Part shown: positions 22,547 through 61,747 of the stretch, in pieces | Position numbering within the stretch: position 1 is the first letter of the stretch | How the letters are laid out: each line of letters opens with the position of its first letter | Source: an uncultured Lachnospiraceae bacterium | GTDB taxonomy: Bacteria; Bacillota; Clostridia; Lachnospirales; Lachnospiraceae | NCBI GenBank assembly: GCA_947623185.1 | Contig: CANQGL010000003.1 | Span: 1 to 64,000, forward strand | DNA length: 64,000 bases | Reading direction: 5' to 3' | Program-made: the position numbers and the translations under genes | Notes under the pieces: model-generated | Told to the model about the DNA's origin: nothing | Seen by the model: only the letters and a program-made list of their open reading frames with translations | Databases searched by the model: none

Positions 22547-22573
22547 ACCAATTTTCGCGCGTCCCATATGATA
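22547..22573 (+). promoter_or_regulatory. Possible sigma-K-type promoter
   Basis: AC (22547-22548), 16 bases, CATATGATA (22565-22573), matching the sporulation mother-cell pattern AC...CATANNNTA. No acceptable sigma-A -35/-10 pair at normal spacing precedes this gene. Short motifs of this kind occur by chance, so this is tentative. Confidence 0.45.
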
Positions 22574-22609
22574 TAGTACAAACCTGAAATTTTAAGGAGA
22601 CTTCATCAT

Positions 22610-22993
22610 ATGGGTATCTGCAGAAATTGCTTTTGCAACGGCTCCAATTCCTCGAGCGGTGTGAATTCCGGAACCACCAATTCGAATTCCGGAGCGAACA
22701 ACAGCTGCAGCTGCGCTTACAAGAGCGGCTACAAATGCGGTTACAACGCCGGTTACAATACCGGCTACAACGAGGGCTACAACGCCGGTTATAACGCCGG
22801 CTACAATGCCGGATACCAGGCGGGCTACACGGCCGGCGCCCAGAGCTGCACGAACACCGGCGTAGGCGGAGCCACCACCGGATGCGGATGCAATTCCGGC
22901 TGTAATTCGGGATGCAACTCCGGATGCAATTCCGAGAGCACCACGCCCATGACGTGCTGCAAGACCGTCTGCGGCCCGTGCACCACGATCTGA
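22610..22993 (+). CDS. Cys/Tyr/Gly/Asn-rich period-4 repeat protein
   Basis: A 127-residue low-complexity protein with 16 cysteines and 10 tyrosines. Three zones are visible: an N-terminal Ser/Asn/Gly zone with C4, C7 and C9; a central tract where tyrosine recurs every fourth residue from Y37 to Y73 (GYNA-type repeats); and a C-terminal zone with C94, C98, C102 and C106 again at period four (GCNS repeats), ending TCCKTVCGPC. There is no signal peptide or membrane segment. A good ribosome site (AAGGAG) and a terminator downstream support a real gene. I do not recognise a family. Composition and the sigma-K-like promoter suggest a cross-linked spore-surface protein; a metal-binding protein is an alternative. 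Confidence 0.8.
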   Translation: MGICRNCFCNGSNSSSGVNSGTTNSNSGANNSCSCAYKSGYKCGYNAGYNTGYNEGYNAGYNAGYNAGYQAGYTAGAQSCTNTGVGGATTGCGCNSGCNSGCNSGCNSESTTPMTCCKTVCGPCTTI

Positions 22994-23041: not shown

Positions 23042-23087
23042 AAGCCCGGCGGGAACTGCGTTAAGCAGCCCCGTCGGGCTTATTCTT
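23042..23087 (+). terminator. Terminator after the Cys/Tyr repeat gene
   Basis: Stem AAGCCCGGCGGG (23042-23053) pairs with CCCCGTCGGGCTT (23069-23081), followed by a T-rich stretch. Confidence 0.8.
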
Positions 23088-23162
23088 TGCGTGTGCCGGC
23101 TCGTCTTTGCCTGCGAGCCGGTGTGTTTTTGCCTGTGTGCCTGTTCGCTGCCTGCCCTGTGG

Positions 23163-24071
23163 CTATACGGCCTTCTCGGAATTTCCGCTCACGGCGCGGT
23201 AGGCGTCGATGATGGAGGGCAGGATCTCCGGATGCTCGAAATCGTTCGCATAGACGATGTTGATCTCGCGCATCATGCTGAAGTTCTCGATCGGCAGCGC
23301 GGCGATCTTTTTCTTTGACAGCTCGTCCATACATGCGCTGCGGGCAAGCACGGAAACGCCGAACCCGCGGCGGATCAGATCCTTGATGGTGGCGATGTTG
23401 TCGATCTCAAGCACGACGTTGAAGTCATTGATGCTCATGTTCCGGCTCTCGAGCTGCGCGCGGAAGAGGTTGCGGGTGTTGGACCCGGCGCTCCTTAGGA
23501 TCAGGTTCTCCTTCTTGATCTGGTCGATCGTCACCACGCCCTGCTTTGCCAGTGGATGGTCCGGGGCGACGATCAGCATCAGGCAGTCGGTGTCCAGCAT
23601 CAGATGGCTGAGCGAGCTGCCGCTGATCCGGCCCTCGGCGATGATGAAATCGAGCTCGTAATTCTTGAGCATGCTGCGGAGGTTCTTGACGCTGTCGGTC
23701 ACGACCTTGACGGTCAGACCGTCCTGCGTGGTCGCGTAGGAAGCCAGGGCCTCGGCGATCGCGCTGCTCTCCGCGGTGTGGGTGATGCCGACGGTGAGGG
23801 AGGTGATGCGCTCCTTCTCCTCCTTGAGGTCCCGCTCGAGATTGTGGCGCAGGGCGGAGACCCGCCGCGCATAGCGCAGGATCAGCTTGCCCTCGCGCGT
23901 CAGATGGAGCTCGTTGTGCGCGCGCTCAAAGATCCGCGCGCCCATTTCCTCCTCGAGAAGACGGATGTGCTGGCTGACCGCCGGCTGCGTGAGAGAGAGC
24001 TGTTCCGCCGCGCGGGTAAAGCTCCCGGTTTCCGCCACCGCGATCAGGGAATAGAGTTTGGGATCGACCAT
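23163..24071 (-). CDS. LysR-family transcriptional regulator
   Basis: A 302-residue LysR regulator. The winged-helix domain occupies residues 1-60 (LIAVAETGSFTRAAEQLSLT, QPAVSQHIRLLEEEMG), and the periplasmic-binding-like effector domain covers about 90-295 (LTVGITHTAESS, FIIAEGRI, LRSAGSNTR, RRGFGVSVL). The latter resembles the CysL/YtlI-type branch. It lies 42 bases downstream of the MATE gene, probably on the same transcript, and a T-N11-A operator sits in front of that gene, so it likely controls the exporter and itself. The inducer is unknown. Confidence 0.93.
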   Translation of the reverse strand: MVDPKLYSLIAVAETGSFTRAAEQLSLTQPAVSQHIRLLEEEMGARIFERAHNELHLTREGKLILRYARRVSALRHNLERDLKEEKERITSLTVGITHTAESSAIAEALASYATTQDGLTVKVVTDSVKNLRSMLKNYELDFIIAEGRISGSSLSHLMLDTDCLMLIVAPDHPLAKQGVVTIDQIKKENLILRSAGSNTRNLFRAQLESRNMSINDFNVVLEIDNIATIKDLIRRGFGVSVLARSACMDELSKKKIAALPIENFSMMREINIVYANDFEHPEILPSIIDAYRAVSGNSEKAV

Positions 24072-24113
24072 GTCCGTTTACCTCCCTTTTGCCCTGCCGG
24101 GGTACTGCTTTTA

Positions 24114-25553
24114 TTATATCCGATGTTTCCGGATCGCGCAACCGAAAGCAGGTAAGACCGCCTCCGGTTTTGCCGCCGTTTTGGCTTCATCCGGGTGTTT
24201 CACAAGGAAAGCCGCAAAGAGGACGAGCGCCGTAAGGCAGCAGAGGAGATCCGCGATCGGGGTCGCCCACACGATCCCGTAGACCGGAAGGACCGAGCTC
24301 AAAACGAACATGAGGGGGATATCGATGATCCCCTTTCTGAGGACCGCGAGCAGGAACGACTTCCCGCCTTCTCCCGTCGCCTGGAAGAAGGAGATGATCG
24401 TGTACGCGCAGGCGGAGAACGGACCGCCGATGCAGAGGATCCGCAGGAACCGCGAACCGTAAACGACCGATTCGGAGCCGGGGCGTATGAAGATCCCGAT
24501 CAGCTGCGCGGAGAAGACCAGGTTCGCGCCCATGCAGAGGAAGGCCGCAGCGACCGCGATGGCCGCCGCAAGCAGGACGGACTGGCGCATACGTTTGTAG
24601 TTCCTGGCCGCGTAGTTGTAACCGATCAGCGGAAGCGCCCCCTGGGCGATGCCCCGCACGATACAGTGGGCGAGCATGTTGACTTTTTTGGCGACGCCGA
24701 TCCCGGCCTGCATCTGCGTCCCGCAGAGGGACATCAGTTTGTCGAGCACGGCGTAGGATATATTCTCAAACAGCGTCATCAGACAGGCCGGCAGGCCGGC
24801 GCTCAGTATTTCTTTCGGGATCTCATCCGCGAAAGCGCCCGCGGCGGGCGCAAGCATGATGACGGAATTTCCCTTCCGGTTGATCCATACGAGGGCCAGG
24901 AAATAGACGGCCGCGACCGCGTTGGAGAGAGCGGTGGCGATCGCCGCGCCGAGCGTCTCCTGTCCGGGCGGAAGGATGACGAACATGAAAAGCGGGTCGA
25001 GCGCGATGTTTAAAATGCCGCCGAGCGCGATGCCCGCGCTGGCGAGGACCGAACGGCCCTCGGCCCGGATCAGGTGCGAGAGCAGCACGCTTACGGAGGT
25101 CGTTATGCCGCCGATCACGACCGTGCAGATCAGATAGGCGGACGAATATCCGTGGACCTCGGCGGCGGTGCCGCCGAGAAGGTCCACAAAGGAGTCAATG
25201 AAAAGAAAAGTACCGAGCGAATAGACCGCCGTGAGCGCAAGGCAGCCCCAGAACGCAAACGAGGACGCCAGACGGGCGCGCTTACGGTCCTGGCTCCCGA
25301 GCGCACGGGAGATCACGCTCGCGCCGCCGATGCCGAACAAATTCGAGATGGCGGAGAGGAACATGAAAGCCGGCATACAGACGGTAACGGCGGTCAGCAT
25401 GGCGTCGCTGCCGGTAAGTCCGATAAAGAAGGTGTCGGCGAGATTGTAGACGACCAAAATGATTTGGCCGATCACGGTCGGAAAAGCAAGACGGAGGATC
25501 GCGCTTGTCACGGAGCAGTCCTCGAACAGCTCTTTTTCCTTTGCAGGATTCAT
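24114..25553 (-). CDS. MATE-family efflux transporter
   Basis: A 479-residue multidrug and toxin extrusion transporter with 12 predicted membrane helices in two halves. Characteristic features are the opening LRLAFPTVIGQIILVVYNLAD (in two parts), DTFFIGLTGSDAMLTAVTVCMP, GIGGASVISRALG and GIAQGALPLIGYNYAARNYKR. MATE proteins export drugs or metabolites with Na+ or H+. The start at 25553 follows AAAGGGGG at good distance; an ATG 24 bases earlier has no ribosome site. Its own promoter and a LysR box lie upstream. Confidence 0.92.
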   Translation of the reverse strand: MNPAKEKELFEDCSVTSAILRLAFPTVIGQIILVVYNLADTFFIGLTGSDAMLTAVTVCMPAFMFLSAISNLFGIGGASVISRALGSQDRKRARLASSFAFWGCLALTAVYSLGTFLFIDSFVDLLGGTAAEVHGYSSAYLICTVVIGGITTSVSVLLSHLIRAEGRSVLASAGIALGGILNIALDPLFMFVILPPGQETLGAAIATALSNAVAAVYFLALVWINRKGNSVIMLAPAAGAFADEIPKEILSAGLPACLMTLFENISYAVLDKLMSLCGTQMQAGIGVAKKVNMLAHCIVRGIAQGALPLIGYNYAARNYKRMRQSVLLAAAIAVAAAFLCMGANLVFSAQLIGIFIRPGSESVVYGSRFLRILCIGGPFSACAYTIISFFQATGEGGKSFLLAVLRKGIIDIPLMFVLSSVLPVYGIVWATPIADLLCCLTALVLFAAFLVKHPDEAKTAAKPEAVLPAFGCAIRKHRI

Positions 25554-25609
25554 GCCCGGATCCCCCTTTCTTCGCATTTTGCACAGACATTTTCAATTTG
25601 GATAGCAAT

Positions 25610-25674: not shown

Positions 25675-25862
25675 GGACGACCGATATTTTCTCGAATAAA
25701 CCAAAAAAATTAAAATATAAGAAAATATTCCATAAGGGATCGTTATCGGCGGCAAAAAAATTGTAATGATCCGAACATGGGAATATTTTCCGGACAAACC
25801 GCATACACTGTAAGGAGAGACCGAAACCGGACAAAAACCGAAATCAGAACAGGAGAATGATC

Positions 25863-26090
25863 ATGGCAAGAGGTGCAAGAAAGAGCCCGAAGGAAAAGAT
25901 CCAGGAGCGGCTGACCGACGTGAACGAGTCGATCGCCCGCTACAGCGAGTGCCTGGAGAAGATGAAACAGGAGAAGAAGGAGCTGGAGGCCGAGCTGGAA
26001 AAGCTGGATATCGCGGAGCTCTCCGCGATGCTCAAGGAGAGAAAGCTCTCTGTGAACGAAGTCATGGAGATGGTGAGCCAGGCAGGATGA
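25863..26090 (+). CDS. Small coiled-coil protein, unknown function
   Basis: A 75-residue, highly charged protein. Residues about 10-45 form a heptad-like coiled coil (ERLTDVNESIARYSECLEKM, EKKELEAELEKL), followed by a short helix ELSAMLKERKLSVNEVMEMV. There is no membrane segment. AGGAG lies seven bases before ATG 25863; an ATG at 25857 is too close to it. A hairpin overlaps the stop codon. I cannot assign a family. Confidence 0.7.
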   Translation: MARGARKSPKEKIQERLTDVNESIARYSECLEKMKQEKKELEAELEKLDIAELSAMLKERKLSVNEVMEMVSQAG

Positions 26091-27973: not shown

Positions 27974-28047
27974 CGGGGTATGGCGTAGCTTGGTAGCGCG
28001 CTCGGCTGGGGGCCGAGAGGTCGCAGGTTCAAATCCTGTTGCCCCGA
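27974..28047 (+). tRNA. tRNA-Pro (GGG)
   Basis: A 74-base cloverleaf. Acceptor arms CGGGGTA/TGCCCCG, anticodon stem CTCGG/CCGAG around loop CTGGGGG with anticodon GGG, T stem GCAGG/CCTGT with TTCAAAT loop, discriminator A. No CCA is encoded. Confidence 0.95.
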
Positions 28048-28050
28048 CAT

Positions 28051-28124
28051 GGAAGCATAGCTCAGCCGGGATGAGCGTTCGCCTCACACGCGAGAGGTCA
28101 TGGGTTCGAGCCCCATTGCTTCCA
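28051..28124 (+). tRNA. tRNA-Val (CAC)
   Basis: A 74-base cloverleaf. Acceptor arms GGAAGCA/TGCTTCC, anticodon stem TTCGC/GCGAG around loop CTCACAC with anticodon CAC, T loop TTCGAGC, discriminator A. No CCA is encoded. Only three bases separate it from tRNA-Pro. Confidence 0.95.
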
Positions 28125-28133
28125 CTTCCATAT

Positions 28134-28206
28134 GGGGCATTAGCGCAGTTGGGAGCGCGCTACATTCGCATTGTAGAGGCCGTGGGTTCGAATCCCATAT
28201 GCTCCA
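28134..28206 (+). tRNA. tRNA-Ala (CGC)
   Basis: A 73-base cloverleaf. Acceptor arms GGGGCAT/ATGCTCC include the G3-U70 pair that marks alanine tRNAs. Anticodon stem CTACA/TGTAG holds loop TTCGCAT with anticodon CGC. Discriminator A; no CCA is encoded. Confidence 0.95.
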
Positions 28207-28244
28207 CTTCCGGAAGATTCCGGGACAGTCCGATATATGGGCAT

Positions 28245-28317
28245 GGAGATGTAGCTCAGCTGGGAGAGCATCTGCTTGACGTGTAGAGGGTCGCAGGTTC
28301 GAGTCCTGTCGTCTCCA
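28245..28317 (+). tRNA. tRNA-Val (GAC)
   Basis: A 73-base cloverleaf. Acceptor arms GGAGATG/CGTCTCC, anticodon stem TCTGC/GTAGA around loop TTGACGT with anticodon GAC, T loop TTCGAGT, discriminator A. No CCA is encoded. Confidence 0.94.
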
Positions 28318-28324
28318 TTCAAAG

Positions 28325-61006: not shown

Positions 61007-61747
61007 ATGGTTATAAAAATATCGGTACCCGGACGGTTCAGGCTGAAAAAAGCGGCCACGATCCGGACGCTGCTTCTGAAGGACCAGGGGGAGATCCACT
61101 ATATCGGCGGAGCCGACGTGCTGCCCGCGCCGCTCACGGCCGAGGAGGAGGGCGTCACGCTGGCGCGCTTCGGGACGGAAGGCGAGAAGGAGGCAAAATC
61201 GCGCCTGATCGAGCACAATCTGCGCCTGGTCGTATACATAGCCAAGAAATTCGACAATACGAGCGTCGGCGTCGAAGATCTGATCTCGATCGGCACCATC
61301 GGACTGATCAAGGCCATCAATACCTTCAATCCGACAAAAAATATCAAGCTGGCGACCTACGCCTCGCGCTGCATCGAGAACGAGATCCTGATGTATCTGC
61401 GGCGGACCAGCAAGACAAAACTGGAGGTCTCGATCGACGAGCCGCTCAACGTGGACTGGGACGGGAACGAGCTTCTGCTCTCGGACATCCTGGGGACGGA
61501 TGAGGACGTGATCTACCGGGGGATCGAGGAGGAGACCGAGCGCGATCTTTTGAGGAACGCGATCGACAGCTTAAACCCGCGGGAGAAGCGGATCGTGGAG
61601 CTGCGCTTCGGGCTGAACGGATCGGGCGGGATGGAGATGACGCAGAAGGAGGTCGCGGACCTCATGGGCATCTCGCAGTCCTACATCTCAAGACTGGAAA
61701 AGAAGATCATGAAAAGACTGAAAAAAGAGATCGTGCGGTTCGAATGA
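61007..61747 (+). CDS. sigE: Sporulation sigma factor E (pro-sigma-E)
   Basis: A 246-residue sigma-70 factor with a basic/hydrophobic pro-peptide of about 27-30 residues ([18 protein letters not shown]). Cleavage by SpoIIGA is expected near [11 protein letters not shown], matching the B. subtilis site around EVYYIGGSE. Region 2 shows [16 protein letters not shown] and [14 protein letters not shown], then [17 protein letters not shown]; region 4 has [20 protein letters not shown]. It directs early mother-cell transcription. AAAGGAGG precedes ATG 61007. The usual downstream sigG is absent here. Confidence 0.97.

Follow-up and report, generated by a model that had tools for sequence, protein, structure and literature searches.

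Lachnospiraceae are major spore formers of the gut. The spore coat and exosporium are built by sigma-K genes, and in C. difficile bclA1-3 and several cot genes are under the control of this factor (PMC3789822). The sigma-K promoters of that organism have AC at the -35 position and a -10 element resembling that of sigma-E promoters, in which the -35 element is ATA; the choice of -35 element goes with a residue of the factor itself, arginine in sigma-K and glutamine in sigma-E, and promoter P2 of C. difficile sigK carries AC and CATATAAT (PMC3789822). The C. difficile exosporium proteins CdeC (405 residues, 9% cysteine) and CdeM (8.7% cysteine) contain repeats of the types NPC, CCRQGKGK and CNECC; a sigma-K promoter has been predicted for cdeM, and both proteins have been sought by others in Lachnospiraceae and not found (PMC6101409). 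CsxA of Clostridium sporogenes and ExsY and CotY of Bacillus are unrelated cysteine-rich proteins that self-assemble into disulfide-held spore layers, and the same assembly is expected by the authors of that work for diverse cysteine-rich proteins of spore formers (PMC7333573). Added to these is a precedent of another kind, the deca-GX3 zones (glycine at each fourth residue, about ten units) that are required for the pairing of Yae1 with Lto1 (PMC4523923).

The gene considered here lies in a window of 64,000 nucleotides (the whole stretch of DNA that was analysed) from an uncultured Lachnospiraceae bacterium, the source genome being a 2.75-Mb draft (G000). This genome encodes SpoIVA, SigK and SigE, in agreement with the original prediction that the organism sporulates, and at the sigma-discriminating place its SigK has arginine (GISRSY) and its SigE glutamine (GISQSY). 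SigE is itself encoded in the window (61040-61735, forward strand) and scores above the cut-off of NCBIfam TIGR02835. SpoIVA together with SigK and SigE is present in the carriers of the cysteine-rich gene; co-occurrence with SpoIVA is not discriminating, because most of the bacterial family sporulates and most non-carriers have SpoIVA as well. The features of the gene are as follows.

22547..22548, forward strand: -35 element AC of a sigma-K-type promoter, kept in six close relatives
22565..22579, forward strand: -10 element CATATGATA plus its conserved TAGTAC extension, kept in relatives
22594..22599, forward strand: ribosome-binding site aaggag, read from the sequence and also kept in relatives
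22610..22993, forward strand: gene of the Cys/Gly/Tyr-rich protein, an ORF of 127 residues; proposed spore envelope protein
22610..22717, forward strand: N-terminal head, residues 1-36, rich in Cys, Ser and Asn, with a conserved M-x-x-C-R-N start (from alignments)
22718..22837, forward strand: GX3 zone, residues 37-76, glycine at each fourth residue and then tyrosine
22847..22990, forward strand: C-terminal Cys-rich tail, residues 80-127, including the CNSG repeat
23042..23088, forward strand: terminator-like hairpin, then a T-rich stretch; its long stem (23042-23081) comes from inspection by eye

The original prediction had described a protein of 127 residues with 16 cysteines and two zones of strict four-residue periodicity. 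The count of 16 cysteines holds (residues 4, 7, 9, 33, 35, 43, 80, 92, 94, 98, 102, 106, 116, 117, 121 and 124; 12.6%), and all ten tyrosines of the protein do stand in a single register, at every fourth residue from 37 to 73 (37, 41, 45, 49, 53, 57, 61, 65, 69 and 73). When the protein's own residues were permuted 200,000 times, the run of ten tyrosines was never matched (0/200,000; longest shuffled run, 6), nor was the run of ten glycines at residues 40-76 in steps of four (0/200,000; longest shuffled run, 9). The second zone, with cysteines at 94, 98, 102 and 106, is correctly placed but does not amount to a strong feature: a run of four cysteines arose in 3,640 of the 200,000 shuffles (1.8%), and the CNSG form of the register is absent from the six close relatives. 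The first zone stands, and is better named a GX3 repeat with an aromatic residue after the glycine; over the runs counted in relatives, that residue is tyrosine 59 times and phenylalanine 21 times. The register is maintained while the repeat number varies, the check that the original prediction had suggested, with glycine runs of 7-11 and tyrosine runs of 4-10 across the homologues.

At the DNA level the GX3 zone is a diverged 12-bp repeat, and since the glycine and tyrosine codons of its units vary at third positions only, the pattern is held at the protein level. Among relatives, dN/dS is 0.043/0.555 (G001/G002) and 0.100/0.683 (G021/G343), a ratio of about 0.08-0.15. Values as low as these mark the 127-residue ORF as a real, constrained coding gene which, judged by these rates, is under purifying selection. 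The good ribosome site and the terminator claimed for the gene are also found; in addition to the long stem, a hairpin scan gave shorter hairpins 3' of the gene at 23067-23080 and 23091-23126.

That the protein has no named family, another part of the original prediction, is borne out by searches of Pfam, NCBIfam and PHROG, in which no model with a curated cut-off was reached. A sequence search of the PDB returned no relative; neither did the viral contigs searched, so nothing hints at a phage origin of the gene. The only profile matches are weak ones of GX3 type, namely Yae1_N (PF09811; 22.4 bits against a cut-off of 27.5), FliH (32.6 against 180) and unnamed PHROGs. The first two lie over the GX3 zone and, along with the mediation of Yae1-Lto1 pairing by deca-GX3 zones (PMC4523923), they could point to a regulatory or adaptor protein whose GX3 helix binds a partner as in Yae1 or FliH, the cysteines being secondary. 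We regard this as very improbable: the scores are far below the curated cut-offs, and three members found through their promoter (G113, G050 and G363, see below) combine it with a high cysteine content and no GX3 zone, so the zone is optional. The GxxxG helix that had been offered as an alternative to a spore role is better read as a module within the same protein than as a rival to that role. A structure model from a seven-row alignment places helices at residues 39-56 and 63-77, unreliably, with a mean pLDDT of 34.

Clear homologues, of 151-222 residues, were found in six genomes, two of the same genus and four others of the same family (G002, G001, G284, G021, G343 and G230). They share a modular build: Cys-Arg-Asn near the N-terminus, a GX3 zone that differs in length from one to the next, and ends rich in cysteine. 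In G001, G002, G284 and G230 the homologue is immediately preceded by an SH3/NlpC/P60 gene and followed by a small coiled-coil gene and/or an SH3/amidase_3 gene. The window has, at 25857-26090 (forward strand), a gene for a coiled-coil protein of 77 residues without a Pfam match, which is kept 3' of the cysteine gene in several genera; a LysR regulator and a MATE transporter (23163-25577, reverse strand) separate the two genes and are missing at the corresponding place in G001 and G002. Four tRNA genes, for Pro, Val, Ala and Val, lie at 27974-28318 (forward strand). Among the loci read from a phylum-wide profile search there were only GX3 proteins without cysteine. Many of the matches within the family were rejected on reading as unrelated proteins with GX3-like tails; so was a GX3 protein of 312 residues in the source genome (G000:C128, at L010:3361-4299, forward strand), with a GYETGRSDGYETGRS repeat in its tail. 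A Cys-GX3-Cys protein of 208 residues with a CNSGCNNGCNSGC tail is encoded in G022 (L034:1495-2121, forward strand). The sigma-K motif of the form AC-N16-CATATGATA was not found upstream of it, and it is possibly a convergent or distant member.

In an upstream alignment, AC-N16-CATATGATAwAGTAC is invariant 5' of seven syntenic homologues, G230 included; the block is conserved above its surroundings, and the leader and ribosome-binding site come next. The arrangement of AC, 16-17 nt and a -10 element of the form CATANNNTA, a consensus taken from C. difficile (PMC3789822), is present at the gene and at its relatives, and from this likeness we infer that the promoter would be used by sigma-K. In the window, AC-N16-CATATGATA occupies 22547-22573, 36 nt before the ATG, which is its single occurrence in the whole source genome; the only exact copy being that of this gene, no known sigma-K gene of the source genome is seen with it. 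A looser sigma-K pattern gave one match in the same genome, with no credible gene behind it. The AGTAC that follows CATATGATAw (22574-22579) is conserved like the -10 element itself and has the same place in all members. To our knowledge the sigma-K consensus does not include it, and another factor may bind there.

The conserved SH3/NlpC/P60 and SH3/amidase_3 neighbours could instead suggest a vegetative protein of the cell wall or surface that works with those enzymes, the upstream block then being a sigma-A promoter. TATGAT within CATATGATA is indeed near TATAAT, and TGCACA, found in some members, matches TTGACA at 4/6 positions. However, the -35 element at this gene would be GGAACC, a match of 2/6, and no forward sigma-70 site came up in a promoter scan. 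What does not vary is AC together with CATA...TA, also seen in the variant CATAATATA of G061, and six members in other neighbourhoods (below) have the promoter without those enzymes. The sigma-A reading of the promoter is therefore judged worse than the sigma-K reading, and the vegetative role has, in our view, very little chance of being correct.

Screens led by the promoter bear on the sigma-K reading further. The first used CATANNATANAGTAC, with AC not required, in seven genomes and gave nine matches against four for the reversed pattern that served as control. Seven of the nine precede Cys-rich family members, one precedes a BclA-type gene in G061 and one lies inside a coding gene; in all eight that precede a gene, AC is found at a spacing of 16 or 17 nt. 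The BclA-type gene (L123:5365-5967, reverse strand) is collagen-like with a Cys-rich head, and has CATATGATATAGTAC upstream with AC at 17 nt; a second collagen-like gene (L123:885-1622, reverse strand) lies about 4 kb beyond it. Another of the eight, also in G061 (G061:C14), precedes the gene of a Cys-GX3-Cys protein of 71 residues, divergent from cotJA/cotJB; this gene and the BclA-type one thus have the looser form of the motif.

The second screen, for AC-N16-CATATGATANAGTAC in 397 genomes of the same family (inferred to be Lachnospiraceae), used no protein information. It gave 15 matches in 15 of the 397 genomes, against one for the reversed pattern; a single match is inside a coding gene, and each of the other 14 is followed, at 25-31 nt, by the ATG of a short ORF of 12.6-28.3% cysteine. 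We propose a promoter-anchored family of short ORFs with at least 12% cysteine, starting 25-31 nt beyond the motif, a definition that the gene in the window fits. In about 309 genomes from other families of the class, AC-N16-CATATGATANAGTAC was not found. Eight members were new, six of them in neighbourhoods without the flanking genes of the window and two (G050 and G363) in the same one. A short Gly-aromatic zone is present in five (G196, G255, G362, G048 and G035) and lacking in G113, G050 and G363. As the screen was blind to the protein, its finding of Cys-rich ORFs behind the motif links product to promoter on independent grounds; leader and ribosome-binding site are alike too, which makes common descent of the 5' part likely. 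What recurs would thus be a conserved gene head, not a repeated invention.

The cysteine content of these members, with many CxC and CxxC groups, might also fit a protein akin to metallothionein, acting in the mother cell or the spore, in which CxC, CC and CxxxC store or buffer metal instead of building a shell. No metallothionein family was matched in Pfam or NCBIfam, though, and across the members cysteine number (16 to 56) and spacing vary widely, both of which a defined metal cluster should hold constant. The sigma-K-type promoter, common to the BclA-type gene, points instead to the envelope, and we think metal binding unlikely.

The protein resembles CdeC and CdeM in being Cys-rich and repeat-bearing and in its sigma-K-type promoter (predicted for cdeM), but the NPC, CCRQGKGK and CNECC repeats are absent from it and no GX3 zone is described for CdeC or CdeM. 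With CsxA, ExsY and CotY it shares a high cysteine content, disulfide self-assembly in an outer layer being only proposed for it; there is no known sequence relationship, no Pfam or NCBIfam model was reached, and its low-complexity body with a GX3 zone is a difference. Yae1, Lto1 and the N-terminal region of FliH likewise have about ten units with glycine at each fourth residue, a zone proposed to pair helices (PMC4523923), whereas their remaining parts are missing from the 127-residue protein and they have no Cys-rich ends. The link to the BclA-type collagen-like exosporium glycoproteins is the motif shared with the G061 gene; collagen-like GXY triplets are absent from our protein. By analogy, the best explanation would be that it works like the CdeC/CsxA/CotY class, which does not imply membership in any of those families.

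We consider it quite probable that the product is a structural component of the outer spore envelope (coat or exosporium), made under sigma-K, set by disulfides and paired through GX3 helices. The spore coat or exosporium role originally proposed is well supported by the conserved sigma-K-type promoter, the sporulation genes of the carriers and the motif before the BclA-type gene. The mother cell would transcribe the gene during late sporulation, with its RNA polymerase carrying sigma-K. The GX3 zones, where present, would pair helix to helix like the deca-GX3 zones of Yae1-Lto1, bringing together the Cys-rich tails, which would then oxidise and so surround the forespore with a disulfide-linked, insoluble layer. 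Disulfide cross-linking, part of the original prediction, fits what is seen. Dityrosine links, the other part, fare poorly: phenylalanine freely replaces tyrosine, and several promoter-sharing members have few tyrosines or none, so that dityrosine is possible but weakly supported as a shared mechanism. Since members without GX3 or without tyrosine exist, cross-linking through cysteine is the likelier shared function, with the GX3-Tyr zone as a module that members can lack.

A literature search, which is not proof of absence and did not extend to the Cys-rich proteins listed in the supplement of PMC7333573, found no description of the family. We give about even chances to a broader proposal, namely that this is a Lachnospiraceae-specific class of spore-shell proteins that replaces CdeC/CsxA and is found by promoter, not by protein homology. 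Such a class would have a near-invariant sigma-K promoter and leader, an N-terminal Cys motif and a fast-changing low-complexity body of Cys, Asn and Gly, with a GX3-aromatic helix in some branches. As a design for protein materials, the GX3 and Cys-tail build is a simple one: assembly first, then setting through oxidation. If the reading is correct, promoter search would be a homology-free route to fast-evolving spore genes, and the members of this unnamed, promoter-anchored Cys-rich family would be candidates for the spore surface of Lachnospiraceae.
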